DNA from: a virus
Strand: one strand, 5' to 3'
DNA: 64,000 nucleotides
IMG/VR virus record: IMGVR_UViG_3300018080_004265
Location: 1-64,000 of that record
Numbering within the stretch: position 1 is the first letter of the stretch; every line of letters begins with the position of its first letter. The notes beneath the pieces were generated by a model. It ran no database searches, was not told where the DNA came from, and worked only from the letters and a program-made list of their open reading frames with translations. Below, in pieces: positions 11,659 through 33,300 of this stretch. The position numbers and the translations under genes are program-made.

Positions 11659-11668
11659 GGAGTCAATA

Positions 11669-12574: not shown

Positions 12575-12584
12575 GGAGATTATA

Positions 12585-12818: not shown

Positions 12819-12822
12819 TACA

Positions 12823-13569: not shown

Positions 13570-13958
13570 TGTATTATCAATGTGTTGGTAAAACTCATTA
13601 TTACGAGAAGCTGGGCTTCCCTCAGTATAAGGGACCAAATAACGTAAGTAAGTTTATTGACTATAAAGATTGGATGCCAGGGTACAAAAAGACTCCATCA
13701 GAATTAGGTGTACCATTTCCGCCTCCAGAACAATTTAGAGATGCTGATGGCAGATTATGGTTATTAAGACATGGCGATATTGGAGTTGATGGCAATAAAC
13801 CATTTACAAGTGAAGCTAGACATGGTGCAGAAGCAGTTGGGGATTGGAGTGGATTTAAGCCTCAAGTAAAAGAAAAAACATATGATCCGAATTTAAGTTG
13901 GGCTTTTCAATGGGGAAATACATGGCAAAGCCTTAAACGAAGGGGATTTTTAAAATGA
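13569..13958 (+). CDS. Aromatic-rich hypothetical protein
   Basis: A 129-residue protein rich in Trp, Tyr, Gly and Pro (KFIDYKDWMPGYKKTP, FPPPEQFRDADGRLW), with TSEARHGAEAVGDWSGF in the second half and a SLKRRGFLK end. The similar C-terminal SLKERG of the gene at 15244, and a shared build of Pro-rich turns with a W-rich segment, suggest the two could be distant relatives. It has no tag, but overlaps tagged genes on both sides by 1 and 4 bp. Confidence 0.6.
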   Translation: MYYQCVGKTHYYEKLGFPQYKGPNNVSKFIDYKDWMPGYKKTPSELGVPFPPPEQFRDADGRLWLLRHGDIGVDGNKPFTSEARHGAEAVGDWSGFKPQVKEKTYDPNLSWAFQWGNTWQSLKRRGFLK

Positions 13959-14197
13959 AAAAATATAAACTGCCAATAAAAAAGAATATAGATAAACTTC
14001 CTATAGAAAAAGGTGGACCAGGATCTGGTCGAAGAAAAGGAAGTCGACTTGATGTTGGAATGCCATTAGTTAATGTTAATGGTAAACCTGGAGAAATTGT
14101 TGGTGGTAATAGTAGACATGGTTATTGGGTAAGATTCCATGGTAGTGGAGAAGAAAAACGTTATCCTGCTAAAAAAATTCATGTTATGAGAGACTAG
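13955..14197 (+). CDS. LPIxK/KGGPGSGR-tagged SH3-like protein
   Basis: An 80-residue protein. Two LPIxK units (YKLPIKK, KLPIEK) lead into KGGPGSGRRKGSR, a motif I know from many phage head-associated proteins. The remaining ~50 residues read as a small beta barrel (VGMPLVNVNGKPGEIVGGN, then GYWVRFHGSGEEKRYPAKKI). It thus repeats the plan of tag plus SH3-like barrel seen at 11669. Its stop is followed by a 160 bp AT-rich gap with no gene and no convincing promoter or terminator. Confidence 0.7.
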   Translation: MKKYKLPIKKNIDKLPIEKGGPGSGRRKGSRLDVGMPLVNVNGKPGEIVGGNSRHGYWVRFHGSGEEKRYPAKKIHVMRD

Positions 14198-14357
14198 TTA
14201 AAATAGTATTAACAATTAATTTAAATTTGTTATTATCGCTATAAGAAAAGTTAATAAGTATTATATCCTCTTTCATTCTTCTGTTAATCATAAAAAATTG
14301 CCTTCGTAGATAACATTTTTGTGGTAATAATTATATATATAGAGCAATAGCTTTCAA

Positions 14358-14873
14358 ATGAAAAAAACATTAATTTTAGATAATTTAGGTCGTATACAAG
14401 GGAGGTTGGAACCTCGCGGAGGTGACGTGTATGTGTATGACCGCAATGGTGTGTATCAAGGAAAAACTTCTGGCGGAAAAACATATAACAAGAATGGGAT
14501 TATTATTGCTATTGGAGAAATCCCTGGTATTTTAATAAAATCAAAAAATAAATTACCAATTCAAAAAGGCGGTCCAGGATCTGGTAGAAAAAAATTAACT
14601 GAAAAAGATAAGAAACTTATAGCGTTAGCAAAAAAAGTAATTAAACCAGGTATGGATGCGTCTGATATAGTTGCTGCTTTAAAACAAGAAGGAGTAAGCC
14701 CTACTGAATTTTGGAAACCAAAAGATTATGAAACATGGGCTGAAAGAACTGGAAAAAAACATAAAGAAGCAAATAAAAATAGATCACAAGAAGATATTCA
14801 AAAAGAAGAAGAAAAGTATAAGAAACAACAAGAGAATGAAGATAAGACAAAGCGTAGATATGATATTGGCTAA
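14358..14873 (+). CDS. Protein with internal LPIQKGGPGSGR tag
   Basis: A 171-residue protein in which the tag KLPIQKGGPGSGRKK is internal (about residues 67-81). It is preceded by an unusual domain of Gly/Asp turns (LGRIQGRLEPRGGDVYVYD, then RNGVYQGKTSGGKTYNKNG). The body after the tag is helical and Lys/Glu-rich. No SD is visible before ATG 14358, and the first ~100 bases are clearly more GC-rich than the surroundings. A perfect 6 bp inverted repeat (GAGGTT/AACCTC) lies near 14401-14415. This looks like a fusion of an acquired N-terminal domain to a normal tagged protein. Confidence 0.6.
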   Translation: MKKTLILDNLGRIQGRLEPRGGDVYVYDRNGVYQGKTSGGKTYNKNGIIIAIGEIPGILIKSKNKLPIQKGGPGSGRKKLTEKDKKLIALAKKVIKPGMDASDIVAALKQEGVSPTEFWKPKDYETWAERTGKKHKEANKNRSQEDIQKEEEKYKKQQENEDKTKRRYDIG

Positions 14874-14893
14874 ATAAAAAAGGAGAGTGTTAC

Positions 14894-15244
14894 ATGAAAA
14901 AGTTACCTATTCTAAAAGCTAAAAAGAAACCTACGCGTTCTCAAGCAAAACAATCTGGAACGTATATCGGATTTGATAAATTGGTTGAGAAGTTAAAAAG
15001 AAAAAAAGGTATTTCAGAAAATTCATTGGAAAAAGCTTTGGATATTTTGAAAGTAGAGGATTTCTTCGAAGAACTTTGGGTAAAATCCATTGATGGTGTT
15101 ATTATGAACACACCAGAATTTATGGAAGAAATTGGGAAGGCAAAGGTTTATAATCCCGCTGGATTAGCTGCATATATTGGAAGAAAAAAGTATGGAAAGA
15201 AAAAGTATCAAGAAATGGCAGCTAAAGGAAAGAAGAAAAAATAA
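14894..15244 (+). CDS. LPILK-tagged protein with phage IGRKKYGK motif
   Basis: A 116-residue protein starting MKKLPILKAKKKPTRSQAKQ. It ends with NPAGLAAYIGRKKYGKKKYQ and a Lys-rich tail. The last motif (usual form PxxLAAxIGRKKYGKxxF..MAAxGRK) is widespread as a short terminal module of phage proteins. The middle is helical (GISENSLEKALDILKVEDFFEEL order). Good SD GGAGAG. Both ends therefore carry recurring phage tags, which supports a structural or packaged role. Confidence 0.72.
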   Translation: MKKLPILKAKKKPTRSQAKQSGTYIGFDKLVEKLKRKKGISENSLEKALDILKVEDFFEELWVKSIDGVIMNTPEFMEEIGKAKVYNPAGLAAYIGRKKYGKKKYQEMAAKGKKKK

Positions 15245-15651
15245 TGGGGATGTTAGGTGAACAACCTACTCAACCAGTTTCAGCATTTGGGTGGTGGGTT
15301 GGTAAAACAGGGAGCCAGCTTATTCAATCGCTTGTTCCTCAAATGCCAAAGCCACCACCAAAATTAAATATAAACTTAACATATGATAATGTAAAACAAG
15401 TAAATCCAACAACACATGATTGGTCATATCCTCAAACATATAAATCTGGATCTGCTGAAATAAAAGCATATGAAGATAGAGGATTTCCACGTTATGATAA
15501 TAATGGACAGCCAACAAAAGAATTTGCGAATTGGAATGGATTTAATTGGAAAGATTATCCAAATAGATTTGAACCGCCAAGAGAAAAAACAGCGACTACA
15601 CATGGGGCAAGATTAGATTCTTTAAAAGAACGAGGCTTAATACAATCATGA
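15244..15651 (+). CDS. Pro/aromatic-rich hypothetical protein
   Basis: A 135-residue protein that starts on the last base of the previous stop. It opens with Gln/Pro-rich sequence and a hydrophobic FGWWVGKTGSQLIQSLVPQM stretch, then PKPPPK and an aromatic-rich body (HDWSYPQTYKSG, GFPRYDNNGQP). The end, ARLDSLKERGLIQS, parallels SLKRRGFLK of the gene at 13569. Possibly a peripheral structural protein; no family is recognised. Confidence 0.58.
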   Translation: MGMLGEQPTQPVSAFGWWVGKTGSQLIQSLVPQMPKPPPKLNINLTYDNVKQVNPTTHDWSYPQTYKSGSAEIKAYEDRGFPRYDNNGQPTKEFANWNGFNWKDYPNRFEPPREKTATTHGARLDSLKERGLIQS

Positions 15652-16076
15652 CATTAAAGATACATAAAGATTTAAGAATATGGAAGAAGCCAGACAAAAG
15701 AGCTTCTGAATATGCATCAGATCAGGGATTAGAATATTCTTCTAAAGATCCTGCGCCAAATCAATGGATTAGAAAAAACATTTTAGATAAAGTGGTTTAT
15801 TGGATTGATACAGTTCATGAACCCGGTTCTCAAGAGGGGTATAGAACCGCCTTTAATGAATTAACTAATTATGCTATACCCCTTGGGGATATTAAATTAA
15901 ATATTGAATCATATATAGCACAAACAAAGATTAATAGAAAAGAATCAAAAGTAGAACCAACAAAAGATAATTTTAAGTATTATGATAATGAACTTAAAGC
16001 TTTAGAAAATGTATTATTGTTGGTGAACGATAAGATCCCACCAGAAGAACGAGATCGCCTATTTACTTTAGGTTAA
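15648..16076 (+). CDS. Hypothetical 142-residue protein
   Basis: ATGA overlap with the previous gene. The N-terminus (MTLKIHKDLRIWKKPDKRA) is basic and resembles the lead peptides of the tagged genes without the KGKPW core. The rest is helical with acidic patches (DNFKYYDNELKALENVL, then IPPEERDRLFTLG). No family is recognised. Confidence 0.58.
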   Translation: MTLKIHKDLRIWKKPDKRASEYASDQGLEYSSKDPAPNQWIRKNILDKVVYWIDTVHEPGSQEGYRTAFNELTNYAIPLGDIKLNIESYIAQTKINRKESKVEPTKDNFKYYDNELKALENVLLLVNDKIPPEERDRLFTLG

Positions 16077-17632: not shown

Positions 17633-18076
17633 ATGAGTAAGTTTGAAGCATTTAAATGTTTAGTTTGCGGGAAGAAATTTAAAAAGCCAAAAGAAGAGTG
17701 GGTTAAACTTAATGAGGAATTAAAAAAAGTAAATGACCCTGATAAAGTAAAGAATAAAATTGAATGTCCACAATGTAGAAATACAAAATTACAGCATTTA
17801 GTTAAAAAGAATATTAATATATTTAAATCTTTATTTTCTTTTATAAATAAAATAATTGATTTAAATTTAAGTATGTTGGGTAATTTAGCTGCAAATACTT
17901 TGATTTTTATTAATAGACAAGTTGGTAGAAATATAGATATTGTAATTGAATATGTAATTGGATTTGTTGGCATATTAGTAGCTACTTATCTTACTAGTCA
18001 ATATTTAAAAATAGATGTGTTGTGGAGTCTTGGAGTTGTATTTCTATTTTTCATAATTAAGAAACTATTAAAGTAA
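17633..18076 (+). CDS. Zinc-ribbon membrane protein
   Basis: A 147-residue protein with an N-terminal zinc-ribbon (CLVCGKKF near residue 10 and CPQCRN near residue 44, a CxxC-CxxC pair). After it come two hydrophobic helices (roughly residues 104-121, YVIGFVGILVATYLTS, and 127-142, LWSLGVVFLFFII), ending KKLLK. The topology suggests a cytosolic metal-binding head anchored in the inner membrane. It is the last gene before the endonuclease/portal boundary. The role is unknown. Confidence 0.68.
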   Translation: MSKFEAFKCLVCGKKFKKPKEEWVKLNEELKKVNDPDKVKNKIECPQCRNTKLQHLVKKNINIFKSLFSFINKIIDLNLSMLGNLAANTLIFINRQVGRNIDIVIEYVIGFVGILVATYLTSQYLKIDVLWSLGVVFLFFIIKKLLK

Positions 18077-21541: not shown

Positions 21542-22876
21542 ATGGGTACGTTAGATAGAACATACAAAGATATTTTAAAGCAATTTTTTCCTGAGACGTC
21601 ACATAAAATACCTATTTATAAAACTATGTCAACGACAGTTGGTAAACCAAGAGGTCCACTTACTGAAGAGCATAAGCGCCATATTAGCGAATCATTAAAA
21701 AAGAAATATGGTGCCACTAATTATGATGAAATATTTAAACGTTTTATTAGTGAAAATTACGGTATTATTGGTAATGTCGTAAAAAAATATCAACCTTATG
21801 CCGATCGAGATGATTTGATTCAAGAAGCATTGGTTAAGGTATATGAAAATTTTCATAGATATGATCCAGATATTTCTAAACCTACTACTTGGTTAAATCA
21901 AGTAGTTAGTGGACATTTACATGGATATATTACTCCTCAAGAATTAAAAAGGCATGGGGCTTATGTAAAAATGGTAACTTTTAAAAGAATTGCTGCAAAA
22001 TTCCTAAAAGATACTGGAAAAGAAGCAACAAATGAAGATATTTCTCGTATCTCAGGAGAACCTCTTGAAAAAGTAAATGTTATTTTAAATCTTTCCAAAC
22101 CCGTACTTCAATTAGATCAACCAATGAAATTCGGCGATGATGATAATATGTTATTAGGAGATACGCTTGAAGTCATTGGCCCATCACCAGAAGATATTGT
22201 AGAAAGAATAGAGGCAAAAGAAATGATTAATCAAGCAATAGATCAGTTAGATGATAGAGAGAAAGTAGTTATATTAGAAAATACTGGATACAAAACTGGC
22301 GAACCTAAAAATGATTCTGAAGTTGCAAGAATATTAAATATTTCAAGTGTATATGTAAAAAAGATAAGGGAAAAAGCATTTGATAAAATGAAAAGATTTT
22401 TAAAGAAAAAAGAATATGTTGCAAAATCAGAAGATACTCCAGATAAAATTATTCTATATTTAGCAGGAATAGAACAAGCGATTAATCAATTAAATGATAA
22501 AGCAGTTATTAAATCAATGGTCACTTCATTATTAACTGCTATTAGTAAAAAAGAAATTAAAAAAACATATAATCCAATAAGAATTAGACAAAGAGATCCA
22601 AAAATATTTAATAAAGATACCATGAGAACAATAAGTTTATCAAAAAGTCTTGGTATTCAAGCGGTTATTGGTGAATTACCAAACGATAAAAGAACAAGAG
22701 TTCAAACACTTATATTCAATAGAACTCCCGATGAAGGCAAAACATGGGATTTAAAAGAAGCAAAATCATGGGTAAAAGCGCATAAAGAAAGGATAAAAGT
22801 AAGTTTAGATTTAAAAGAATTATTAGAAAAAACTAAAAAAATTATCGATAAACAAATAGAAGAAGAGGTGAAATAA
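21542..22876 (+). CDS. Sigma-70-family protein with phage C-terminal extension
   Basis: A 444-residue protein. Residues ~1-45 hold an IPIYK start-like motif, GKPRGP and a NUMOD3-like LTEEHKRHISESLKKKYG. Sigma region 2 follows (DRDDLIQEALVKVYENFHRY, then PTTWLNQVVSGHL), then a region 3-like helix (GKEATNEDISRISGEP) and region 4 with helix-turn-helix (INQAIDQLDDREKVVI, then DSEVARILNISSVYVKKI). The last ~140 residues are unlike sigma factors and include RTPDEGKTWDLKEAKSWVKA, a motif I associate with phage head/protease C-termini. It lies in the head operon between MuF and protease. It may direct late transcription or be packaged. Confidence 0.82.
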   Translation: MGTLDRTYKDILKQFFPETSHKIPIYKTMSTTVGKPRGPLTEEHKRHISESLKKKYGATNYDEIFKRFISENYGIIGNVVKKYQPYADRDDLIQEALVKVYENFHRYDPDISKPTTWLNQVVSGHLHGYITPQELKRHGAYVKMVTFKRIAAKFLKDTGKEATNEDISRISGEPLEKVNVILNLSKPVLQLDQPMKFGDDDNMLLGDTLEVIGPSPEDIVERIEAKEMINQAIDQLDDREKVVILENTGYKTGEPKNDSEVARILNISSVYVKKIREKAFDKMKRFLKKKEYVAKSEDTPDKIILYLAGIEQAINQLNDKAVIKSMVTSLLTAISKKEIKKTYNPIRIRQRDPKIFNKDTMRTISLSKSLGIQAVIGELPNDKRTRVQTLIFNRTPDEGKTWDLKEAKSWVKAHKERIKVSLDLKELLEKTKKIIDKQIEEEVK

Positions 22877-24852
22877 TGTTTAATCCGATATTTAAAGGAA
22901 AAATATCGAAAAGTGATAGTGACAAATCTGATAATAAATTTTTTATTCAAGGATATATGTCAAAACCAGTAGTTGATTTAGAAAATGAAATAGTTGATAC
23001 TTCGGCTTATGATGATGCTATTGATACTGTTCAACAACGATCAGCAGTTGGGAGACCAATTCCGATTTTCATTGAACATAGAAGAAAAGAATTAAGTTTA
23101 CCAGTTGGTAAAATTGTAGATGCTGGAAAAGATGATAAAGGATTGTGGTTTAAAGGAGAAATTGCTGGTGGAGTTATTGGACAACCAGTAAGAGATTTAA
23201 TTAAAGGTGGATATCTATATGGATGTTCCATTGGTGGAGATGCATTAAAAACAATTCCCTTTTATGATTCGAAATCTAGAAAGGACGTTCGAAAGATTAC
23301 GAAGATGGCATTCAGGGAACTGTCATTAACTGGACTTCCCGTCAACGAGGAAGCAGTTTTTTCAATTGCGAAAAGTTTAAATAAAGATGGAAGGGAGGTG
23401 AAGTTGTTAATGAACAAGTTGAATAAAGCCATCGACATGCAGCAAACGCTTAAAACTTTGGAAAAGGCTGTAGAGCCTGATAATTTAGATGAAGCAAGTC
23501 TAAACCGAATTAAAGAAGCGTTGAACAATTTAGCTAAATTGCTTAAGATAGATATTGCAGAAGGTGGAGGTGTTACTGGTGAAGGGGCCACTCCTGTAGA
23601 AGGAGCTGAAACTCCAACTCCAGAAGCACAACCTGCTGCTGATACAACAGCTGCTCCGGAACCAGCTGTTGCAGAACAAGCTCCTTCAGAAGAGGAGACA
23701 ACTGAAATAGAAGAAAAGAAAAAGAAACCAGAAGAAGAAGTAAAATTAAAAACTCCGGGTACGCCAGAAGAAGGATCAAAGCTTGATGAAATTAATTCTA
23801 AGCTTGATAAACTTTTGAGTATGGAAGCTACTGAAGAGGAAAGTAAATATTCTGAAGAAGATAATTCTGAAGATAATGATTCAGAAGAAAATGATTCTGA
23901 TGAAGATAATGATAGTGATGATGATGAAAATGGTAAAAAGAAAAAATTTCCTAAGAAAAAAGATGATGAAGAAAGGGGTGACAATATGGAGTACTTGAAA
24001 TGCAGAAAATGCGGAGCTAAATATGATATTACTAAATCATATGACGCGAAGTATTGTCCCGAATGTGGCGAAGAATTAGAAGCCGATCAATCTACTGAAA
24101 AAGCACTAGATACCGAAGGGCTATTTAGTGGGGACGATTTAATCTGTGAGGAATGCGGATCTGTTTTCGGAAAATCCGAAAAATATGAAGCTCACTACTG
24201 CCCTAAATGTGGTAAGTCGTTAGCTACTATTGCTGTAGCACCTCCTGCAAAAGGAGCTGATACAAAGCGTCCTGCTGAAAAGCAGATGCCTAAAGGAAAT
24301 GCTTCCCCAGAAGGCGGAGACAGAGTTGCTGTAGCGCCAAGTCCTAAAGGTGCTGATACAAGTTATCAAGATCCTTCAAATTCTGATGGATCTGGTATGG
24401 ATTGGAAAACACCAGACAAAGATATTGATAATTTAAGTAAAGGTGAGAATGCAGACGGTATGGAAAAAGATCTTTCGATCGATAAACCTGTAAAAGACAA
24501 CGCTAATAACGTTGCTTCTTATAAAGGAACTTATTACGTACCTGCTGATCAGAAAGAAGTTACAGATAGAAAAGGATCTGATCTCAACGAATCTCGTCCA
24601 GCTGGAAAACCTATGTTAGGGGCTGATAATCCGGACAAGTATACACAGTACGGAAAAGACAGAATGGGTAAGAGTATGGATGAAAGATTGAGTTCAATCG
24701 AAAAAACGATTGAAAAAGTCCTTGATAAATCTGAAGGAAGAAAATCTGAAATTCCTGGTGAAGGTATTGAGAAGTCTCAAACAGCTTCTGTTCCTTCCCA
24801 AGAATCTATGGATAGAAACTTTGCACAATATTTGTTAGGTTCAAAGAAATAA
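22876..24852 (+). CDS. Prohead protease-scaffold fusion with two zinc ribbons
   Basis: A 658-residue protein. Residues 1-170 are an S78-type prohead protease with His in IFIEHRRKELSLPVG (about 64-78), Ser in YGCSIGGDA (about 115-123) and a typical FRELSLTGLPVNEEAVF end. Residues ~180-365 form a helical then very acidic, Pro/Glu/Ser/Asp-rich scaffold. Two Cys4 zinc ribbons follow (CRKCG...CPEC near 375-395; CEECG...CPKC near 424-446), then low-complexity linker and a C-terminal coiled coil (MDERLSSIEKTIEKVLDK). Two strong internal ribosome binding sites suggest nested products. Zinc ribbons in a scaffold are unusual. Confidence 0.88.
   Translation: MFNPIFKGKISKSDSDKSDNKFFIQGYMSKPVVDLENEIVDTSAYDDAIDTVQQRSAVGRPIPIFIEHRRKELSLPVGKIVDAGKDDKGLWFKGEIAGGVIGQPVRDLIKGGYLYGCSIGGDALKTIPFYDSKSRKDVRKITKMAFRELSLTGLPVNEEAVFSIAKSLNKDGREVKLLMNKLNKAIDMQQTLKTLEKAVEPDNLDEASLNRIKEALNNLAKLLKIDIAEGGGVTGEGATPVEGAETPTPEAQPAADTTAAPEPAVAEQAPSEEETTEIEEKKKKPEEEVKLKTPGTPEEGSKLDEINSKLDKLLSMEATEEESKYSEEDNSEDNDSEENDSDEDNDSDDDENGKKKKFPKKKDDEERGDNMEYLKCRKCGAKYDITKSYDAKYCPECGEELEADQSTEKALDTEGLFSGDDLICEECGSVFGKSEKYEAHYCPKCGKSLATIAVAPPAKGADTKRPAEKQMPKGNASPEGGDRVAVAPSPKGADTSYQDPSNSDGSGMDWKTPDKDIDNLSKGENADGMEKDLSIDKPVKDNANNVASYKGTYYVPADQKEVTDRKGSDLNESRPAGKPMLGADNPDKYTQYGKDRMGKSMDERLSSIEKTIEKVLDKSEGRKSEIPGEGIEKSQTASVPSQESMDRNFAQYLLGSKK
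23410..24852 (+). CDS. Probable nested scaffold product (internal start)
   Basis: In-frame ATG 23410 is preceded by AAGGGAGGTGAA at 23391-23402, as good as any ribosome binding site in the window. It lies exactly where the protease domain ends and the scaffold begins (product starts MNKLNKAIDMQQTLKTLEKA, helical). An in-frame TTG at 23404 is a second option. Known phages such as lambda (C/Nu3) make the scaffold from an in-frame internal start, so the same arrangement is inferred here. Confidence 0.5.
   Translation: MNKLNKAIDMQQTLKTLEKAVEPDNLDEASLNRIKEALNNLAKLLKIDIAEGGGVTGEGATPVEGAETPTPEAQPAADTTAAPEPAVAEQAPSEEETTEIEEKKKKPEEEVKLKTPGTPEEGSKLDEINSKLDKLLSMEATEEESKYSEEDNSEDNDSEENDSDEDNDSDDDENGKKKKFPKKKDDEERGDNMEYLKCRKCGAKYDITKSYDAKYCPECGEELEADQSTEKALDTEGLFSGDDLICEECGSVFGKSEKYEAHYCPKCGKSLATIAVAPPAKGADTKRPAEKQMPKGNASPEGGDRVAVAPSPKGADTSYQDPSNSDGSGMDWKTPDKDIDNLSKGENADGMEKDLSIDKPVKDNANNVASYKGTYYVPADQKEVTDRKGSDLNESRPAGKPMLGADNPDKYTQYGKDRMGKSMDERLSSIEKTIEKVLDKSEGRKSEIPGEGIEKSQTASVPSQESMDRNFAQYLLGSKK
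23986..24852 (+). CDS. Possible nested zinc-ribbon product (internal start)
   Basis: A second in-frame ATG at 23986 follows AAAGGGGTGACAAT (23973-23985), nearly the same ribosome binding sequence as the major capsid gene (AAGGGGTGAAATTAAA). The product would begin MEYLKCRKCGAKYD and contain both zinc ribbons plus the coiled-coil tail, without protease and acidic scaffold. Precise placement at the domain boundary argues against chance. Expression is unproven. Confidence 0.45.
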   Translation: MEYLKCRKCGAKYDITKSYDAKYCPECGEELEADQSTEKALDTEGLFSGDDLICEECGSVFGKSEKYEAHYCPKCGKSLATIAVAPPAKGADTKRPAEKQMPKGNASPEGGDRVAVAPSPKGADTSYQDPSNSDGSGMDWKTPDKDIDNLSKGENADGMEKDLSIDKPVKDNANNVASYKGTYYVPADQKEVTDRKGSDLNESRPAGKPMLGADNPDKYTQYGKDRMGKSMDERLSSIEKTIEKVLDKSEGRKSEIPGEGIEKSQTASVPSQESMDRNFAQYLLGSKK

Positions 24853-24963
24853 CGAGTGAGGAAATCTCACGATATCTAAACAGAATGCCAGTGGTCACAG
24901 AAGATTACCACGATACTATTAACTTCAAAACAAAAATTCAAAAATGTAAGGGGTGAAATTAAA
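24853..24963 (+). promoter_or_regulatory. Structured leader of the major capsid gene
   Basis: This 111 bp gap contains two small hairpins: GTGAG/CTCAC (24856-24860 with 24866-24870) and GTGGT/ACCAC (24891-24895 with 24907-24911). An A-rich stretch follows, then the strong site AAGGGGTGA before ATG 24964. It may stabilise or process the mRNA for the most abundant virion protein. No convincing -10/-35 pair is visible. Confidence 0.35.
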
Positions 24964-25405
24964 ATGGGTTTAGAGAAAGCTCTTTCTAGTGCCGTAGGTC
25001 AAGGCGGAGATACAATTATCCCTCAGCTTGCTGATCAGATAATTCCATTTATTCGTCAAAAGTCTTATTTAAGACAATTCCTACAAAGTTTCACTATGCC
25101 TACAGAAACATATCGTTTTCCTAAGTTAACACAAGGGAATTCTGTATATTATGTGGGTGAAGCTGCAAGTGCACCTGAGAGTTTAATGACTACAGGAACT
25201 ATCGAACTTAATGCTAAAAAGCTTATGGTTGCGTTAGCAATTTCTGCTGAGTTAGAAGAAGATGCTGTTGTTCCTATCGTACCGGTTGTCCGTGACGATA
25301 TGGCAAAAGCATTCGCTCTTGCTGAAGAAAACGTATTCATCAATGGTGATACGACTCATACAGCGACTCAAACAGATCCTGCTTCTGCTACAGAAGCGGA
25401 TTGGT
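24964..25405 (+). CDS. Major capsid protein, exon 1
   Basis: HK97-fold major capsid protein start: VGQGGDTIIPQLADQIIPFI, then LRQFLQSFTMPTETYRFPKL, GEAASAPESLMTTGTIELNA and AFALAEENVFINGDTT. After ATEADW the frame runs into non-coding intron sequence. The 5' splice site after T25405 is defined by a P1 helix (ATTGGT 25400-25405 with GCCAAT 25415-25420) ending in the required U-G pair. Joined exons 25405|26380 and 26639|27603 give 945 nt, a 314-residue protein. It continues as W-Y-VNDHRLAFNG across junction 1. Confidence 0.93.
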
Positions 25406-26379
25406 GTTTTACACGCCAATGTAAAACCCTGAAGAATTGCTGGAAAGTCTTAAAGTCTATCTACTACAACGTAATTTCTTATATAGAAGTAAGCGTGAAT
25501 TGTTTGAAAAATGATAGAATTATGCAATTTGCATAAATAGACAATCAGCAGCCGAGCCCGAAAGGGAAGGTTCAGAGACTATGTATCGGGGATGTTTAAC
25601 AAAACATAAGATATAGTCCGAACTATATGGAGACATATAGAATTATCCAGAAATGAGATAATCTTTAAATAGAATATGGGGTTAAGATAAGAAGTCATGA
25701 GCTTATCGATGGAGCCCAAACTCCAAACCCCACCAATCTTTTGGGAGGTTGAAATGAATGAATTCGTTATATGTGAAATTTGTAGTCAGAAACTAAAAAG
25801 AATTACAAATACTCATTTAAAGCAACATAATCTAACATTTAAAGAATATATTGAATTATACCCTAATTCAAATACAACTTCTAAAATTGTTAGAGATAAA
25901 ATAAGTAAAAACGGAAAAGGAATAACAGGAAGAAAAGCAGGATTTAAGCATAACAAAAAGCATAAAAAGTTAATAAGTAATTTAATGAAAAATAGAAAAA
26001 TTACTTGGAAAGATAAGATAAGAGAGACAATTCAAGATTATTACGATAATAATACTTTAATTGGATGGAAAAGTAAAGAATGTTATGAAAATAAGCCAGA
26101 ATATATGAAGAATATATTCTATGGGAATGAATGGCTGAGTATTCGGTCAAAAGTTAAACAAAGAGATAAATTTATTTGTCAAGATTGTAAAAAGAAAGAA
26201 AATAAATTAGCTGTTCATCACATAATTCCTTTTAAGCATTACTTATTAAAGCACAATGGTAGTTTAGAAAAAGCTAGAAAAGACGCACATAAATTGAAAA
26301 ACTTAATTACCTTATGTTTTAGCTGTCACATGAAAAGAGAAAGACGAATTCAAAAATCTATTTAATAGTAACAAAATTG
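25406..26379 (+). ncRNA. Group I intron 1 in the capsid gene
   Basis: A 974 nt intron. P1 pairs exon ATTGGT with GCCAAT (25415-25420). P10 pairs TTTACA (25408-25413) with TGTAAA of exon 2 (26381-26386). The 3' end is G26379. Core sequence before the ORF includes GAAGGTTCAGAGACTATG and AAGATATAGTCC, the P3/P7 type blocks of td-like group IA introns. The frame is restored exactly on removal, and the joined codon TAT fits between exon 1 Trp and exon 2 Val. It encodes an HNH endonuclease at 25754. Confidence 0.92.
25754..26365 (+). CDS. Intron-encoded HNH homing endonuclease
   Basis: A 203-residue protein. The N-terminal CEICSQKLKRITNTHLKQHN and the following FKEYIELYP resemble a MucR/Ros-type zinc finger, and GKGITGRKAGFKHNKKHKK is a basic linker. 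The HNH core is CQDCKKKENKLAVHHIIPF, with NLITLCFSCH as the last part. ATG 25754 is chosen because GGGAGG lies five bases upstream; an upstream in-frame ATG at 25697 lacks this. The ORF ends 14 bp before the 3' splice site. It is expected to cut intron-less capsid genes and spread the intron. Confidence 0.9.
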   Translation: MNEFVICEICSQKLKRITNTHLKQHNLTFKEYIELYPNSNTTSKIVRDKISKNGKGITGRKAGFKHNKKHKKLISNLMKNRKITWKDKIRETIQDYYDNNTLIGWKSKECYENKPEYMKNIFYGNEWLSIRSKVKQRDKFICQDCKKKENKLAVHHIIPFKHYLLKHNGSLEKARKDAHKLKNLITLCFSCHMKRERRIQKSI

Positions 26380-26639
26380 ATGTAAACGACCACAGATTGG
26401 CGTTTAATGGTTTGAGAAAAGTTGCTTGTGGTACTCAGGTAGACGCTGGATCTGGTGCTCTTACTCTTGCTGATATCTCTACAGGTATTCAAAATTTAGA
26501 CGTTTTCGGACGTGATAAATCAGAACTTCTGTTAGTTGTATCTTTGAGAGAAGAAAACACTTTGAGACAGTTGTTAGGTATCAACCTTGCTGTTAACCAG
26601 CTTGGATTAACTGGTACTGCACTTCCGGGTGAAATCGGT
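26380..26639 (+). CDS. Major capsid protein, exon 2
   Basis: A 260 nt middle exon encoding VNDHRLAFNGLRKVACGTQ, a Gly/Asp-rich segment, then SELLLVVSLREENTLRQLLG and QLGLTGTALPGEIG. The 3' boundary at T26639 is set by P1 of intron 2 (AAATCGGT 26632-26639 with GCCGATTT 26667-26674). Its first two bases complete a Tyr codon begun in exon 1. The typical capsid continuation GxxWGVPVV is found only in exon 3, confirming splicing. Confidence 0.92.
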
Positions 26640-27602
26640 AGACACAGTAAATTACCCAATTACTTTGCCGATTTAAAAACTCGTAAATTCGGTGGAACTC
26701 CAGAAATGGACAATACCGAGCCAAGCCTTGTAATTAAATTACTCGGAAGGTGTAGAGACTATACACGAGTCATTTTAGAAAATATTTCTAAAATTGAAGA
26801 TATAGTCCGAACTGCATATAAATCATTAATGATGAAATTGCAGAGCATAGCAGAAATGACTATGCCTCAAGAATTTAATATGGGTCTAAGTTTAGCCTAA
26901 TTAACTAAACGACGGTGCTTGTATCACCAAGACCCACCTAATCTTATACAAGGAGATTAAAATGGTTGCAAAAGGTTCTAAATTATCAGAGGAAACAAAA
27001 AGAAAAATAAGTGAAAGTGTAAAGAAAAAGTTTAAAGAAAGTCCTGAAATTATTGAAAATGGTGTTAAAAAATGGAAAAAATTTTTTAATACAAAAGAAG
27101 GAAAAATAATTTGGGAAGAAAAAAATAAAAAAGTTAGTAATACAATGAAAGGAATTAAAAAGAAGCCTTTCACTAAAAAACACAAAGAAAACATAAGCAA
27201 AGCAACAAAAAGACAATATAAAGAAATGTTTCCTTGGGGTAAACGAAAATCATCAAAAATTCATTTAAAGTTACAAAAACAATTATATAAATACACTGAT
27301 AATTTTATATCAGAAGAATTTATAAGATTAAAAGAATTAGAAAAATGGATTTGTGTTGATGAACTTGATAGAAAAAATAAAATTGCAATATTTATAGATG
27401 GCGAACATTGGCACGCAAGAAATTATAAAGATAATTATATTGTTCGACCTCTAAATAAAACTGCAAAAGAAATAAGAAATAAAGACAAGATAGAAACAAA
27501 ATGTCTTATTTCAAAAGGATATCAAGTTTTAAGATTTTGGGATACCGAAATTGAAAGTAATTTAGAACAATGTATTAATAAAATTCTTGAAGTAACAAAA
27601 TG
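26640..27602 (+). ncRNA. Group I intron 2 in the capsid gene
   Basis: A 963 nt intron. P1 has eight pairs ending in U-G. P10 pairs TACTTT (26661-26666) with AAAGTA of exon 3 (27603-27608). The core includes GAAGGTGTAGAGACTATAC and GAAGATATAGTCC near 26746-26810, close to intron 1. The intron ends at G27602. The open frame runs on from exon 2 for 87 codons into the intron before a stop, which would mislead an annotator. It encodes a Vsr-like endonuclease at 26962 whose stop codon spans the 3' splice site. Confidence 0.92.
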
Positions 27603-27603
27603 A
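26962..27603 (+). CDS. Intron-encoded homing endonuclease (NUMOD3 + Vsr-like)
   Basis: A 213-residue protein. NUMOD3-type motifs are at the N-terminus (KLSEETKRKISESVKKKF, FTKKHKENISKATKRQ). The C-terminal EDxHD/Vsr-like nuclease contains IAIFIDGEHWHARNYKDN, then RNKDKIETKCLISKGYQVLR and FWDTEIE. SD AAGGAG before ATG 26962. The stop TGA (27601-27603) uses the last two intron bases and the first base of exon 3, so the spliced mRNA destroys the stop. It belongs to the I-Bth0305I-like group, unlike the HNH enzyme of intron 1. Confidence 0.9.
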   Translation: MVAKGSKLSEETKRKISESVKKKFKESPEIIENGVKKWKKFFNTKEGKIIWEEKNKKVSNTMKGIKKKPFTKKHKENISKATKRQYKEMFPWGKRKSSKIHLKLQKQLYKYTDNFISEEFIRLKELEKWICVDELDRKNKIAIFIDGEHWHARNYKDNYIVRPLNKTAKEIRNKDKIETKCLISKGYQVLRFWDTEIESNLEQCINKILEVTK

Positions 27604-27845
27604 AAGTATGGGGCGTTCCAGTTGTAGCAACAAACTTATTGAGGGTTAGTGATACTAATACTTCAGAAGCTCTGTTGTTAAATAGAAACGCTGCGGTTAT
27701 CGGCGACAGACGTATTTTCACTATCAAGTCTTCGGATGAGGTATTGTTACGTTCTGACCAGTTGTTAATCGTTGCTTCTGAAAGATTGGCATTTAATGCA
27801 CAATACTGTGAAGCAATCACTAAGATCGTTAACATCGCTAGCTAA
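27603..27845 (+). CDS. Major capsid protein, exon 3
   Basis: A 243 nt final exon encoding KVWGVPVVATNLLRV, LLLNRNAAVIGDRRIFTIKS and ASERLAFNAQYCEAITKIVN, ending TAA. WGxPVV followed by NRNA and a DR stretch is the standard end of HK97-fold capsid proteins. An ATG at 27600 creates a false start because its last two bases are intron sequence. Confidence 0.92.
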   Translation, partial: KVWGVPVVATNLLRVSDTNTSEALLLNRNAAVIGDRRIFTIKSSDEVLLRSDQLLIVASERLAFNAQYCEAITKIVNIAS

Positions 27846-27867
27846 AATAAAATTAGTTAGTTTTGTG

Positions 27868-27895
27868 GGGGAGGTAGTAATCCTGCCTCCCCTTT
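27868..27895 (+). terminator. Hairpin terminator after capsid gene
   Basis: GGGGAGGTAG (27868-27877), loop TAATC, CTGCCTCCCC (27883-27892), then TTT. This is a ten-pair stem with one G-T pair, by far the most GC-rich structure in this AT-rich region, followed by a short T run. It would end or attenuate the head transcript after the capsid gene. The T tract is short, so it may be partial or act as an mRNA 3' stabiliser. Confidence 0.75.
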
Positions 27896-27920
27896 GTAAA
27901 GAAAAGAATAGGAGTTTAAA

Positions 27921-28355
27921 ATGACATTAGTAATAACAGATATGAATTTAATTTTGAATTGGAAAAAAGATAATAAAACATATAAAATAGTAAAAGATCT
28001 TCAAATAGATTTACCAGATGAAGCAATTAGCTATTTAAAAAAAGTATATCCAAAAAATAATATAGTAAATATATTAGATAGACCAAAAAAAGATCTACCT
28101 CCAATTGCTAAAGAGCCAATCGAAATTAAAACTACACCTGATGAAGTTACTAATTTAGAAGATCTTGTAGAAGATAAAAAAGAAGAAATAGATATTAAAT
28201 CTATTATAGAAGATGCTATAAAGAAAAAAATAATTATACAAAATGGAATGTGGTATCAATACAATGGCAATAATATTTGTAGAGGTATCAATAAATTAAA
28301 AAATGCATTAAAACAAGATTCTATATTATTAAATGAAATTAGGGGCAAACTATGA
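27921..28355 (+). CDS. Hypothetical protein after capsid
   Basis: A 144-residue protein with SD AGGAG. An N-terminal part starting MTLVITDMNLILNWKKDN is followed by a Pro-rich acidic linker and a helical C-terminus (IIQNGMWYQYNGNNICRG near residue 105). Small post-capsid proteins with a beta-rich start can be head fibre or adaptor components, but no family is recognised. The stop overlaps the next gene. Confidence 0.58.
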   Translation: MTLVITDMNLILNWKKDNKTYKIVKDLQIDLPDEAISYLKKVYPKNNIVNILDRPKKDLPPIAKEPIEIKTTPDEVTNLEDLVEDKKEEIDIKSIIEDAIKKKIIIQNGMWYQYNGNNICRGINKLKNALKQDSILLNEIRGKL

Positions 28356-28609
28356 TAGATGCTAAATCTTTAATATGTGATTCAAACAATAAACTTTCAA
28401 AAGGTAATATTATGTGTTGGATATCTTTTTTCTTTTTAATGGGGTTAATTGTAGCCAATTTAAAAGGAATAAATATATCGACAGATGCTTTTGAAACTTT
28501 AAAATATATTTTTACAACAACTTTTATTTATAGTGGTTGGAAGAAAGGTACAGATGTTTTTAAAGACGTAGAAATCACTAAAAATGGATTTTCAGCCAAA
28601 AAGGAATAA
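28352..28609 (+). CDS. Small two-helix membrane protein
   Basis: An 85-residue protein overlapping the previous stop (ATGA). One strong hydrophobic segment (MCWISFFFLMGLIVANL, about residues 21-37) and a weaker one (FETLKYIFTTTFIYSGW, about 47-63) with a charged C-terminus. Two-segment small membrane proteins in phages are often holins, but its place in the head-neck region is odd for one. Confidence 0.6.
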   Translation: MIDAKSLICDSNNKLSKGNIMCWISFFFLMGLIVANLKGINISTDAFETLKYIFTTTFIYSGWKKGTDVFKDVEITKNGFSAKKE

Positions 28610-28612
28610 AGA

Positions 28613-29755
28613 ATGAAATCATCTTATACTTGGGATCTAAATACAGATAATGCAAGTGAATATATATATGATGCATCTAAGCTAGAATTTACAGCTAATG
28701 GTGTGCGTAGATTATATCCTGCAAGTCCTGATACTCCATATGTTATTAATTCAGAAGGAATTTATTTTACTATATTAAATAAATTTACATGTACAGTATA
28801 CGGGACAACATCACAAGAACAAGTTAGATTCCAATTAAGTAACGATGGTGAAACTTGGTATTATTATGATCAATTACAAACGCAATGGGTAGAATCTGGA
28901 ACAGTTTCTACTTCTGCTGAAATTGTATCTGGATCAAACACTGCAAATGAATTAACTAGTAGTATATTTGAAAAATTTGTTTATGATATTGACGCTGGCA
29001 GTCTTTATTGGAAAGCATATTTATTTCAAGATGTTGAACTTTCAACAGTATCTTTTAATTATGAACAATATTATACAACAATTAAAAAAATAAGACAATT
29101 AATGGCACCGTATGGATTAAGAGCAAGAGATCCAAATACTGGTGAATATTGTGAAGATGAAGATTTTTTATCTGATGCAACACTAAAAGATTATTTAATT
29201 CTTGCTGATAGTTATTTAAATAATTTATTATTTAGAGATTTTTATTATCATAGAGATGTTGTAGAATTCCATGATGGTAATGGGAAAGAATCTTTAACTA
29301 CATATTATTTCCCAATTACAAAGATAACACGTGTAATAATGTATAATCAATTATTACAAGCGATGAGAACATTTTTAGATTCCGAGTTAATAGTACATCC
29401 CGAATGGGGTGAATTGTTCTTGCCTCCTGCATATCCAGCATATTTATCAGATAGACCATCAAGAGGTATATTTGGGAATATCTTTATTCCCGGAAAAAGA
29501 AATGTAGAAATTAAATATGATTATGGATATGAGACGCCACCTGATGATATAGAGATGGCAGCAAGAAAATATATAGGTACACAAGTATTAAATGCTTATT
29601 GGGCATGGATAACACGAGGAATCCAAAGCAGAAGCTTTGATGGTTATTCTGAATCTTATATGCAAAAACCATTTACTGGCATATGGGAACAATGGAATAA
29701 AGAAGTTAATGATATTATAGAACGTAGAAGAAGACAATTTCAGAGGTCAATATAA
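28613..29755 (+). CDS. Head-tail adaptor-like protein with N-terminal beta domain
   Basis: A 380-residue protein. The N-terminal ~155 residues are beta-rich and read like a sandwich domain (YGTTSQEQVRFQLSNDGETW, YDIDAGSLYWKAYLFQDVEL). From about residue 160 a helical part (KKIRQLMAPYGLRARDP, TLKDYLILADSYLNNLLFRD) and a beta segment (YFPITKITRVIMYNQ, YDYGYETPPDDIEMAARKYI) match the layout of connector proteins that bind under the portal (gp6/gp15-like). The position right after the capsid module fits. The domain call is moderately sure. Confidence 0.65.
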   Translation: MKSSYTWDLNTDNASEYIYDASKLEFTANGVRRLYPASPDTPYVINSEGIYFTILNKFTCTVYGTTSQEQVRFQLSNDGETWYYYDQLQTQWVESGTVSTSAEIVSGSNTANELTSSIFEKFVYDIDAGSLYWKAYLFQDVELSTVSFNYEQYYTTIKKIRQLMAPYGLRARDPNTGEYCEDEDFLSDATLKDYLILADSYLNNLLFRDFYYHRDVVEFHDGNGKESLTTYYFPITKITRVIMYNQLLQAMRTFLDSELIVHPEWGELFLPPAYPAYLSDRPSRGIFGNIFIPGKRNVEIKYDYGYETPPDDIEMAARKYIGTQVLNAYWAWITRGIQSRSFDGYSESYMQKPFTGIWEQWNKEVNDIIERRRRQFQRSI

Positions 29756-31980
29756 TGCTTATAAATAAATCATTAATAGACGACTTAAGTGAAGGAGTCG
29801 TTTATGAACTTGAAAAAGCGATTCCTGGCATGCCTAAATTACCAAAACCTGGTAAAATAGGCGGACAACCTGATTTAGATAAGAAAAAAGTTGGAGATAT
29901 CGTTCAAAGACACGGGAAAGATTATAGAATTACAGCTATAAACCCAACAAAAACTGGGTGGGGACGTTTTAAATTAGAAGCAGTTACTAAAAAACCAGAA
30001 GATGAAGCTGCTAAAAGAGAAGCGCGTCCAGAAGAAACTGGAAAACCTACTGCTATTAAACAAATGGGACAACAAGTAAAAGATCTTTATTCTAAAGTAA
30101 AAGAAAAATTAGGGGAAAAACAAAAACCAACTGTAACACCGCCTAAAGAAAAACCAAAAGAAAGACCAATGATCCCTAAAACATCGGCAGAAGTACAACA
30201 AGCTGATATAAATACTTTAAAAGGGACAATGGATTATCTTTCTAATTTAGAAAATAAAATGAATGCTACAAAAACATCTCCAGAACTGGCAAAATTAAAA
30301 CAAGATGTTGTAGATAATTATATAGTTAAAATGAGAGATAAACTTAAACAAAAAATGGGATCTCGTTTTGTTGAATACAAACCAACTGGAAAACCAGGAG
30401 CAGCAGCTGCAGCTGTGAGTTATGAAGATTTACAAAATAAAGTTAAACAATATGAAGATAAAATGTCTGCTGGTCAATATTTAGATCCTCTTGAAAATAA
30501 AGAATATAAGAGAATGAGTAAACAGCTTAATGATATAGAAGATAATAGAATTAAAGCAATGCAAGCTGCTAATCAAAAAATGATGCAAGAAGAACGTGCT
30601 AAAAAAGCAAAAGAATTTGGTGAGAAATTAGCACGTGGTGAAAAACCATTTCCTGAAAGAACTGATAAACATAAAATTGAAGAAGTTAAGTTAACAGATA
30701 AAGATAAACAAGAAGATCTTAGCACCTTTGTTATGACTCGTTATAGAGATGATACTGGAAAATCATATTCATTAGATCAAGTACAAGCTAATAATAAAAA
30801 AGTTGTAGATAGTTTTGTAAAACAAAATGGGTTAAAGATTCCTAAAGATTCTATTAATTATGTTAAAGGTGAAATTAGAATACCATTTAATTCAAAAACT
30901 ATTAAAGAAATAAGTGGAACACTAAAAGAAAATTATGGATCAACTGATAATGATTATATATCTTTTGAAAAAGGTACTCCTGGTGAAGATTCAATTTTAA
31001 AGATCAAAAAAGTTGGCGGAATTAATTGGGAAATTAAACCATTACCAGAACAATCATTAGCTGATTCAATAAATACAGTTTCTGATATGTATGATAAACA
31101 AGCAAAATCTGGAAAGAGAAAAGAATACAGATTTTTATTTGCTCCAGATCAAGCATTATTTAATCCGCCAGATTCTCCTGAAGGTCAATCAATGACATTT
31201 ATTCAAGGTGGTATGAGATCTGGTAAAGGATTAATGTTTGGTACAATGATGAATCAAGCTCTTGGAAGTGCTGATGGATCTGTTGTTAAATTTTATAATT
31301 TTGATCCAACTGGTGCTTTTTGGAATGACATGAAAGATGTTAATCCAAATGTTATTAAACAAATGGATAAAAAAGGATTAGTTGGTCATAATGGTGTTGC
31401 AACAGATAATATAGTTAAGATGCCACCAGATAAACAAGCTTCTGCTGTTAAATCATATGTAGATAATTTTGTTAATAAATATAATGAAGTTTATAGCGAA
31501 CGAGCAGCAATGATGGAACATTATGGCGTTGGTCATATTGGGAAAATAAAAGATCAACAAATTCCTCAAGCAGTATTTAATTTTGATGAAATGCAACAAT
31601 TTGAAGGTATTATTCAAAAAAATACTGCATTATCTAAAGGTGAGAAAAAAGAATTATTAAATAAAATAACTGGAGTAATGGCATCACAAAAAACAACAGG
31701 AAAAAAACTTGGTATAACAATGAATGTTGTTTGTCAAAATGGATTTGATAGTGATCAAATGACTAGTATTTCTGGTGCAGCTGGAAATCATTTATTATCA
31801 TTAGATGGAAAAGCAGATTTAAGATCTTTTGGCAGTGCTAGAGGATTTACAAGTGCAGTGACAAGGGCAAATATTGGAAATGCAATAGTTGCTGAAACAA
31901 GAAAGCCAGATCAGAATCCTAGACTATTAAATCCAATAGTTCCTGGTGTTGGTACAGCAACTGCATTAAAAGGTAAATAA
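29755..31980 (+). CDS. FtsK/HerA/VirD4-type P-loop ATPase
   Basis: A 741-residue protein. The N-terminal portion has an LPKPGKIGGQPDLDKKKVG tag-like segment and a small barrel-like stretch (VGDIVQRHGKDYRITAINP). A long Lys/Glu/Pro-rich coiled coil follows to about residue 320. The C-terminal ~270 residues form an ATPase with Walker A FIQGGMRSGKGLMFG (about 480-494) and Walker B QAVFNFDEMQQFE (about 602-614). A Gln-containing motif NVVCQNGFDSDQM lies further on. This layout is typical of DNA or protein translocating ATPases such as FtsK, HerA or VirD4. It is not a terminase, which lies at 7957. A role at the neck or in ejection is inference. Confidence 0.75.
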   Translation: MLINKSLIDDLSEGVVYELEKAIPGMPKLPKPGKIGGQPDLDKKKVGDIVQRHGKDYRITAINPTKTGWGRFKLEAVTKKPEDEAAKREARPEETGKPTAIKQMGQQVKDLYSKVKEKLGEKQKPTVTPPKEKPKERPMIPKTSAEVQQADINTLKGTMDYLSNLENKMNATKTSPELAKLKQDVVDNYIVKMRDKLKQKMGSRFVEYKPTGKPGAAAAAVSYEDLQNKVKQYEDKMSAGQYLDPLENKEYKRMSKQLNDIEDNRIKAMQAANQKMMQEERAKKAKEFGEKLARGEKPFPERTDKHKIEEVKLTDKDKQEDLSTFVMTRYRDDTGKSYSLDQVQANNKKVVDSFVKQNGLKIPKDSINYVKGEIRIPFNSKTIKEISGTLKENYGSTDNDYISFEKGTPGEDSILKIKKVGGINWEIKPLPEQSLADSINTVSDMYDKQAKSGKRKEYRFLFAPDQALFNPPDSPEGQSMTFIQGGMRSGKGLMFGTMMNQALGSADGSVVKFYNFDPTGAFWNDMKDVNPNVIKQMDKKGLVGHNGVATDNIVKMPPDKQASAVKSYVDNFVNKYNEVYSERAAMMEHYGVGHIGKIKDQQIPQAVFNFDEMQQFEGIIQKNTALSKGEKKELLNKITGVMASQKTTGKKLGITMNVVCQNGFDSDQMTSISGAAGNHLLSLDGKADLRSFGSARGFTSAVTRANIGNAIVAETRKPDQNPRLLNPIVPGVGTATALKGK

Positions 31981-31982
31981 TA

Positions 31983-32741
31983 ATGGCAGAATGTACTTCA
32001 ACTAGAGTTAATGCGATCAAAGGCATGGTTGATAGAGGTGGTGTTTACGTCACTATCTATAATGCTGAACCTTGTACTGGTGATCAAATAACAGTTAATA
32101 ATGAACTTCAACAGTTTAATTATGAATTAACTGGCACTAATAGCGTGATCCTGTATGGGTATGAGAGTCTTATTGGGGCTAAAGTAGATTGGGATCTAAG
32201 TGGAACTGAAGTAGTATCTGGATCCATGGTAGTAACAGATGCGTCTGGAGTTACTGGATATAATGAAAATATTGATTATACAATGGATTATGAAAATGGC
32301 ACTTTAACTAGAACAGATACTGGATTATTACAAGACTTATCAATTATAAAAATAAATTATACATGGCATTTTGATTGTGTAGATGAAAAAACTGGATCTC
32401 CGTTTAGATATTGTACAACATGTATAGATCCAGATCAAGGTAATTTTCCAACAGGTGTAATATATACAAATTCGACTAGAATGAAAGCTTTATTTCATAT
32501 TCCAAATTATAATTCTCCTTTTGAAAAAATTGGCGTATGGAAATTAGGTGATGGTGTAGTAACAGTACCTTATGATGTTCAAGTAAATGCTAAAAATCAT
32601 GAAGACGGTGGATTTTTCTGTCAAGATAAAATAAAAATTGATGGACAACCAGGAATTTGGAAAGTTATGTCTCTCCCACAGACCATACAAATGGGGGAAT
32701 TCTTGGGTAAAAGAATTCATGTCAGAAAGATAGATTTTTAA
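31983..32741 (+). CDS. Neck/tail protein, unknown
   Basis: A 252-residue beta-rich protein with an internal NIDYTMDYENGTLTRTD unit ending IIKINYTW. This is the same small beta module found in baseplate proteins downstream. Cysteine pairs occur (RYCTTCIDPD). The C-terminal part (KIKIDGQPGIWKVMSLPQTI) resembles the end of head-tail joining proteins. It lies between the ATPase and an ART-like gene in the neck region. I cannot name the family. Confidence 0.6.
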   Translation: MAECTSTRVNAIKGMVDRGGVYVTIYNAEPCTGDQITVNNELQQFNYELTGTNSVILYGYESLIGAKVDWDLSGTEVVSGSMVVTDASGVTGYNENIDYTMDYENGTLTRTDTGLLQDLSIIKINYTWHFDCVDEKTGSPFRYCTTCIDPDQGNFPTGVIYTNSTRMKALFHIPNYNSPFEKIGVWKLGDGVVTVPYDVQVNAKNHEDGGFFCQDKIKIDGQPGIWKVMSLPQTIQMGEFLGKRIHVRKIDF

Positions 32742-32742
32742 C

Positions 32743-33300
32743 ATGACTATATATAAATACGTAGTAGATGAAAATATAAATAAAGCAAAAAAGCCAGTTA
32801 AAGTTAGATCAAAAACTGGTAAAGTGTTTACTCAAATGAGAGAAGAAGGTAAAGGAGCTAAAACAAAAACTCCTAAAATTCTTTATCATGTAGCATTTAC
32901 TGAAAAAGTTCCTAAGATAAAAGAAGAAGGAGTTAGACCATTACAACCAACAAATTGGGTTCAAGCAGGTAATAAGAAAAGATATGGTGGTGGAGAAGTA
33001 TATGCGTTTGAACATCCAGAAGATGCTTTTCGATGGGCAGCTAAAATGGATTGGGAATTTAATAAAGAGATGGGCAGTGGAAAAATTTCTGTAGTTAGAG
33101 CTAAAAATGATGAAGAATGGGAAATAGATGAAAATGATCCAATGAGTCAAGCCGGTTCAAAAGGTAATTGGCTTAAACATGATTTAGGAATCAAAAAAGA
33201 AAATATACAAGATGCTGTACCATTAACAATAGATATTACAAGAAAAATAACTGCAGGAGATACTGAAAAATTAGATTCATTATTTAAAAAGGAAAAATAA
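32743..33300 (+). CDS. Tagged protein with ADP-ribosyltransferase-like fold (putative)
   Basis: A 185-residue protein. The lead MTIYKYVVDENINKAKK and the basic KVRSKTGKVFTQMREEGKG are in the style of the tagged proteins at 6-14 kb. The body starts ILYHVAFTEKVPKIKEEGVR and continues with GGGEVYAFEHPEDAFRWAAK and ISVVRAKNDEEWEID. This is the order of His-strand, helix, YAFE-type strand and later acidic segment seen in ART-like domains of phage MuF-type effectors. Catalytic identity is uncertain. A virion-delivered effector is an inference from tag and location. Confidence 0.5.
   Translation: MTIYKYVVDENINKAKKPVKVRSKTGKVFTQMREEGKGAKTKTPKILYHVAFTEKVPKIKEEGVRPLQPTNWVQAGNKKRYGGGEVYAFEHPEDAFRWAAKMDWEFNKEMGSGKISVVRAKNDEEWEIDENDPMSQAGSKGNWLKHDLGIKKENIQDAVPLTIDITRKITAGDTEKLDSLFKKEK

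Follow-up and report, generated by a model that had tools for sequence, protein, structure and literature searches.

A phage prohead protease-scaffold gene with two conserved candidate internal translation starts and a Cys4-ribbon tail

A single gene of an uncultured tailed phage probably gives rise to three C-coterminal proteins by internal translation initiation. The gene resides within the first 64,000 bases (bases 1-64000, hereafter 'the window') of the 152,375-base virus record IMGVR_UViG_3300018080_004265, where an open reading frame (ORF) at 22876-24852 on the + strand encodes a protein of 658 amino acids (aa) in which an S78 prohead protease is followed by an acidic scaffold-like linker, a pair of Cys4 ribbons and a helix-ended tail. 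Initiation at 22876 would produce a 658-aa protease-scaffold, initiation at 23410 (site 1; AAGGGAGGTGAAGTTGTTA-ATG, codon 179) would produce a 480-aa scaffold, and initiation at 23986 (site 2; AAAGGGGTGACAAT-ATG, codon 371) would produce a 288-aa ribbon-tail fragment.

Both internal ATGs are preceded by exceptionally strong Shine-Dalgarno (SD) sequences. Duplex energies (in kcal/mol here and below) were computed against the canonical anti-SD sequence, which was assumed for the host; this assumption is reasonable because gene starts in the window are clearly SD-led, with a median of -7.1 versus -1.5 for internal ATGs. Among the 268 internal in-frame ATGs present in 74 plus-strand genes of the window, sites 1 and 2 rank first and second, and none of 919 out-of-frame internal ATGs reaches the energy of either site. 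Even genuine gene starts seldom compare, as none of the 74 reaches site 1 and only four reach site 2, with the ORF's own start at -11.7 and the start of the capsid gene at -13.0. When the whole 152 kb record is considered, the sites come first and fourth among 694 internal ATGs (the second and third fall within a 69-aa ORF at 58101 whose reality is doubtful), and 2 of 198 gene starts reach the energy of site 1. In predicted local folds, the stretch from SD to start codon is unpaired more often at both sites than at most gene starts. The initial annotation of this DNA had reported very strong ribosome binding sequences at these two positions, and the rankings bear this out. Its further claim that the starts coincide with domain borders fits roughly: codon 371 of site 2 immediately precedes the predicted ribbon strands (from residue 373), and codon 179 of site 1 falls inside a predicted helix (residues 172-198).

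Comparison with related genes provides the main evidence that these sites are not due to chance. Orthologs were identified in viral contigs by a portal-based search followed by alignment searches, and the eight non-redundant representatives (L004, L005, which is near-identical to L006, L012, L016, L017, L018, L019 and L020) together with the window gene form the nine-gene family to which all counts below refer. The orthologs are 37-55% identical to the window protein, with average pairwise identities of 61% (protease), 25% (linker) and 32% (tail). A viral contig search with the window protein alone gave no match, two genome contig scans yielded no relative, and the ribbon-tail found no match in 50,697 phage records. 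Distant portal relatives (L025-L031) carry S78-like proteases and lack the ribbon layout.

Each ortholog carries a counterpart of site 1, consisting of an SD and a start-like codon located 13-26 residues past an invariant KS motif. All nine genes but L018 (-10.6) have energies between -13.4 and -17.8, and the start codon is ATG in the window, L012, L004, L005 and L018, TTG in L016, L017 and L019, and GTG in L020. When synonymous codons were shuffled using each locus's own codon usage, the site 1 energy proved improbable in the same proportion of genes (P 3e-4 to 6e-3 in 8/9; 0.11 in L018), giving a combined P of ~3e-15, or ~2e-18 if the start codon is also counted.

The evidence for site 2 is of a different kind. 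Among the start-like codons downstream of site 1, the strongest one precedes the first ribbon cysteine by 2-21 residues in eight of the nine genes (P ~1e-6, given the number of start-like codons available there), in a linker that is otherwise only ~25% identical. The exception is L004, in which M386 at the expected position is weak (-8.9) and M431, located between its ribbons, is stronger (-11.6; L004:15736-15738). The residues that encode the SD change from ERGD (window and L012) to GGE (five orthologs) to EEVN (L020), and the start codon is GTG in L019. Codon shuffling gives P values of 0.05-0.12 for most orthologs, 0.42 for L004 and 1.5e-3 for L020 (combined 1e-4). These modest values would be expected if the gene made two products only, with site 1 acting as a true nested start for the scaffold, like those of lambda and Mu, and the SD of site 2 arising as a by-product of a Gly/Glu-rich linker; the known precedents we found also have one internal start. 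Such an account must nevertheless accommodate a strong-SD start that keeps its place before the ribbons while the residues spelling it and, in L019, the start codon itself are exchanged, as well as the low P value that L020 yields on its own. We therefore consider it improbable that site 2 is silent.

If a strong internal site is defined as a start-like codon with an SD at or below -12, the whole family contains 20 such sites among 199 internal start-like codons, and 19 of the 20 are located at sites 1 and 2. Judged by these comparisons, chance is excluded as an explanation, mainly by conservation in the eight relatives. Two other explanations that dispense with internal initiation can be weighed against the same data. 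Herelleviridae Bacillus phages BSP9 and P59 share the order portal - protease - acidic KS-rich scaffold-like protein - capsid, but the protease and the scaffold-like protein are encoded by separate adjacent genes, ribbons are lacking and the protease gene has no strong internal site. Because the genes are separate in these phages, a fusion in the lineage studied here is plausible, and the SDs could be unused relics of once-separate protease, scaffold and ribbon genes from which only the full-length protein is now made. Relics would be expected to decay, yet strong SDs persist in a linker of ~25% identity and the site 1 start is retained through exchanges among ATG, TTG and GTG, making this explanation very improbable. 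Alternatively, the SD-like sequences could act during elongation rather than initiation, either as pause sites for domain folding or as a frameshift signal. Both sites are near domain borders, where a pause could aid folding, but every ortholog also has a start codon (exclusively ATG, TTG or GTG) at initiation spacing, which pausing does not require, and we find this role scarcely credible. Frameshifting in particular was rejected, since stop codons soon follow both sites in the other frames, which would add only short ends.

Several considerations nevertheless weigh against the production of three proteins. The combined P values are overstated because the orthologs were treated as independent; the window and L012, for example, have much of the site 1 stretch in common. 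Two of the sites are weak, namely site 1 in L018 and site 2 in L004. The codon-shuffle test has little power at site 2 because Gly-Gly-Glu itself spells an SD, and the case for this site therefore rests on its position and its changing residues. The structure model of the protein has a mean predicted local distance difference test (pLDDT) score of 53.6, and we infer a scaffold function from gene position and composition. The initial annotation had suggested that one gene may yield protease-scaffold, scaffold and zinc-ribbon products, and this proposal has gained from the conservation of both sites in diverged orthologs despite changing start codons (site 1) and SD residues (site 2). The support is at the level of sequence. 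Internal initiation, the ratio of the products, cleavage, docking and the role of the ribbons are all deduced from it.

If three proteins are made, their domain content suggests how they might cooperate. The C-terminal helix, which would be common to all three products, could recruit or dock on the capsid protein, and the helical segments found only in the first two could build the scaffold core. The full-length form would bring the protease into the prohead by co-assembly, and, given that no gene start in the window has an SD as strong as its own, the 480-aa scaffold is expected to be the more abundant of these two. The protease would then cut after lysine at [LIVMF]xK↓[SA]-like sites (the arrow marks the cut), both to release itself and to detach the scaffold from the shell, freeing the capsid-bound ends. 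Site 2 would supply a share of the ribbon module without the scaffold core. It is conceivable, although we lean towards doubt, that the ribbon-tail acts on its own in assembly or cargo docking and gains entry to the prohead via the shared C-terminal helix, creating a translationally tuned three-part scaffold. No such scaffold is described in the literature that we found on phages.

The protease and scaffold assignments made in the initial annotation are consistent with family models, fold match and gene order. All nine orthologs match PF04586 (Peptidase_S78; 37.9 bits for the window protein versus a cutoff of 21), and the NCBIfam model TIGR01543 scores 49.5 bits (E 4.6e-13), below its cutoff of 59. 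In the structure model, which shows a protease fold over approximately residues 20-155, residues 8-155 align with T4 gp21 (Z 9.3, root-mean-square deviation 3.7, 139 aligned residues) and with herpesvirus proteases at Z scores up to 6.7, where values <8 are weak evidence alone. The matched folds are capsid-assembly proteases. H68 (in IEHRRKE) and S150 (in RELSLTGLPVN) are invariant in all nine proteins and, from knowledge of the family, are presumably the catalytic residues. The linker that follows is acidic and is modelled mostly with low confidence, with a few predicted helices.

Candidate processing sites are abundant in this protein. The motif [LIVMF]xK[SAG] occurs 13 times, compared with 3.6 times in shuffled sequences, and is enriched in all nine orthologs. 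K166 and S167 are invariant, and a copy of the lysine motif ends the protease domain in each ortholog. Near the other terminus, an IEKS motif is located 25 residues from the C-terminus, and [LIVMF]xK[ST] occurs 19-30 residues from the end in all nine. In the UL26/UL26.5 system of herpes simplex virus 1 (HSV-1), the protease-scaffold is cleaved at two places, an R site behind the protease and an M site 25 residues short of the end that binds the capsid, and the scaffold-only form shares its C-terminus (PMC12474303). By analogy, this R- and M-like layout suggests a herpes-type cleavage mechanism. The capsid protein of the window phage begins with MGLEKALSS, a possible K↓A cleavage site. In HK97, the capsid protein is cleaved at K103/S104 (PMC10275583), a cut in gp5 that resembles the K↓S/A motif of the window phage.

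The same motif is also distributed unevenly among other genes of the record. Copies of [LIVMF]xK[SAG] within the first 30 residues are enriched in genes located before 36 kb (18/45 versus 14/128 elsewhere, P 7e-5), and residues 31-60 show no clear difference between the two sets. These N-terminal motifs (in 2203-16000 and 22876-33300) are often followed by KPWxxQxR..GKGKKG, KGPWKKGKK or GGPGSGR tags, and motifs and tags together have the look of head-targeting peptides that the prohead protease would cut.

The two Cys4 ribbons noted in the initial annotation are plainly present, as both sets of cysteines can be seen in the sequence. Matches to ribbon families are weak even though the cysteines are explicit: PF13240 scores 25.1 bits with the full protein (cutoff 25) and 29.8 with the ribbon-tail alone, DZR scores 24.1 bits, below its cutoff of 27.3, and a search of solved structures by sequence returned only generic zinc-finger matches. 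Copies of the AVAPxxKGADT motif that follows the ribbons also recur in orthologs with two ribbons. Within the scaffold, the ribbons most likely act as a structural or docking module. A structural one is our first choice, and it is possible that they dock cargo or nucleic acid, as the initial annotation suggested. An extended version of the latter idea, in which the ribbon-tail product is an independent adaptor for N-terminally tagged head cargo or nucleic acid, would make use of the fragment's own start, of the nucleic-acid-binding families among its low-score ribbon profile matches, and of the N-terminal motif enrichment before 36 kb, which could mark head cargo. Generic ribbon matches name no partner, however, nothing ties the ribbons to the tags, and a single ribbon suffices in L017 and L020, and we judge such an adaptor unlikely. 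A search for literature that pairs zinc with phage scaffolds returned no paper on point by title or abstract, which does not prove that none exists.

Lambda (PMC8508860) and Mu and Mu-like phages (PMC4378225) provide known examples of a scaffold start placed in frame within a protease gene. Site 1 has the same attributes, being a conserved in-frame, SD-led start located after the protease domain with a predicted C-coterminal product. In Mu (protease I, scaffold Z) and the Mu-like Pseudomonas aeruginosa phage PaMx73, an SD-led scaffold start lies within the protease gene, and its relative position is kept between these diverged phages (PMC4378225). Mu differs in that one internal start is reported, gene I has no CxxC ribbons and the SD is weaker; by our energy measure, the Z start (-7.4) is the second of 16 start-like codons in gene I. 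Lambda C and nu3 likewise encode a nested, C-coterminal protease and scaffold ahead of the capsid gene (PMC8508860). The lambda protease is of S49 type, ribbons are absent and there is one annotated internal start, at residue 239 (-6.4). Both sites in the window are stronger than these Mu and lambda control sites. In lambda gene C (NC_001416), the strongest internal SD is at residue 309 (-10.8; 131-aa product) and is not that of the annotated nu3 start.

Other systems share some of these features. HSV-1 UL26/UL26.5 and human cytomegalovirus UL80/UL80.5 combine a protease-scaffold and a C-coterminal scaffold-only form with a similar protease fold, but the scaffold-only form is made from an overlapping gene in a eukaryotic virus rather than from an SD site, and no Cys4 ribbons are noted in the sources used. 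HK97 gp4 belongs to the same S78/HK97 prohead protease family (as said, TIGR01543 is below its cutoff here). The HK97 scaffold (delta domain) is part of the capsid protein, whereas the capsid protein of the window phage starts LEKALSS and lacks a delta domain, the scaffold being fused to the protease instead. In the isolate Rhodococcus phage Trina, the capsid gene is immediately preceded by a fused gene for a 437-aa head maturation protease with an acidic tail; it has a single strong internal SD-ATG, at residue 252 (-12.9), and no Cys4 ribbon pair. The 246-aa protease of Parageobacillus phage JGon-2020a has neither ribbons nor a strong internal site.

Thus, the combination of a protease with a nested scaffold is already known from lambda, Mu and herpesviruses, and what is new here is the second internal start and the ribbons, neither of which appears in a nested protease-scaffold gene in the literature we found. 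If three products are indeed made, a single phage gene tunes the ratio of three head-building proteins through the strength of its ribosome binding sites, going one tier beyond lambda and Mu and adding a metal-binding module to the scaffold. Finding a herpes-like layout and the same protease fold in a phage also provides material for comparing head assembly between phages and herpesviruses, and the lysine motif offers a testable rule for which proteins undergo head processing. Coordinates are collected in Table 1.

Table 1. Features of the protease-scaffold-ribbon gene and the adjoining capsid exon (window coordinates).
Feature	Position	Strand	Basis or remark
Protease-scaffold-ribbon ORF, product 1, 658 aa	22876..24852	+	Nine-member family
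Peptidase_S78 prohead protease domain, residues 17-165	22924..23370	+	PF04586, 2.6e-9
IAKS motif, residues 164-167, proposed R-like self-cleavage site after K166	23365..23376	+	Putative cleavage
Site 1 Shine-Dalgarno, AAGGGAGGTGA	23391..23401	+	-17.2 kcal/mol; codon-shuffle P 5e-4
Predicted product 2, scaffold + ribbons + tail, 480 aa	23410..24852	+	Site 1 at same place in orthologs
Predicted helix 301-320 of scaffold linker	23776..23835	+	Structure model, low overall confidence
Site 2 Shine-Dalgarno, AAAGGGGTGA	23972..23981	+	-12.2 kcal/mol
Predicted product 3, ribbon-tail fragment, 288 aa	23986..24852	+	Site kept before first ribbon Cys in 8/9 orthologs
Cys4 ribbon 1 (C376, C379, C394, C397)	24001..24066	+	Cysteines invariant in 9 orthologs
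Cys4 ribbon 2 (C424, C427, C442, C445)	24145..24210	+	In 7/9; absent from L017 and L020
AVAPxxKGADT motif, two copies, ~residues 452-463 and 484-495	24229..24360	+	Sequence
IEKS motif, residues 631-634, proposed M-like cleavage site	24766..24777	+	Putative cleavage
C-terminal helix 642-653, putative capsid-docking element	24799..24834	+	Predicted helix, conserved in alignment
Major capsid gene, first exon	24964..25536	+	Phage_capsid 1.2e-22; group I introns

The gene resides in a head module with the order portal - protease - capsid. Upstream are genes for the portal (18848), a MuF-like head protein (20702) and a sigma-70-like protein (21542), and downstream is the capsid gene (24964). Two group I introns (25375-25640 and 26598-26826 within 24964-27845) interrupt this gene and are accompanied by endonuclease-like ORFs. 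The capsid gene is uninterrupted in L012 and L019 and is apparently interrupted at other places in L004, L005, L016 and L018.

The sigma-70-like gene (21542-22876) encodes sigma-70 regions 2-4 fused ahead of a conserved head-module domain, which is a small separate gene in other relatives (loci compared: L004:13010-14446, L018:1390-3522 and L016:3577-3981). In L018, sigma region 3 is found in a different, neighbouring head-module gene. One possibility is that the sigma factor is carried in the virion. Shortly 5' of the portal gene, 17633-18076 encodes a small protein that also recurs in relatives; its N-terminus bears a zinc-ribbon-like CxxC pair and its C-terminal half is hydrophobic. In the head-tail region, a 741-aa gene (29755-31980) that by eye resembles a DNA-pumping-type ATPase (GGMRSGKG motif) carries an N-terminal LEKA motif and occupies the same position in relatives.

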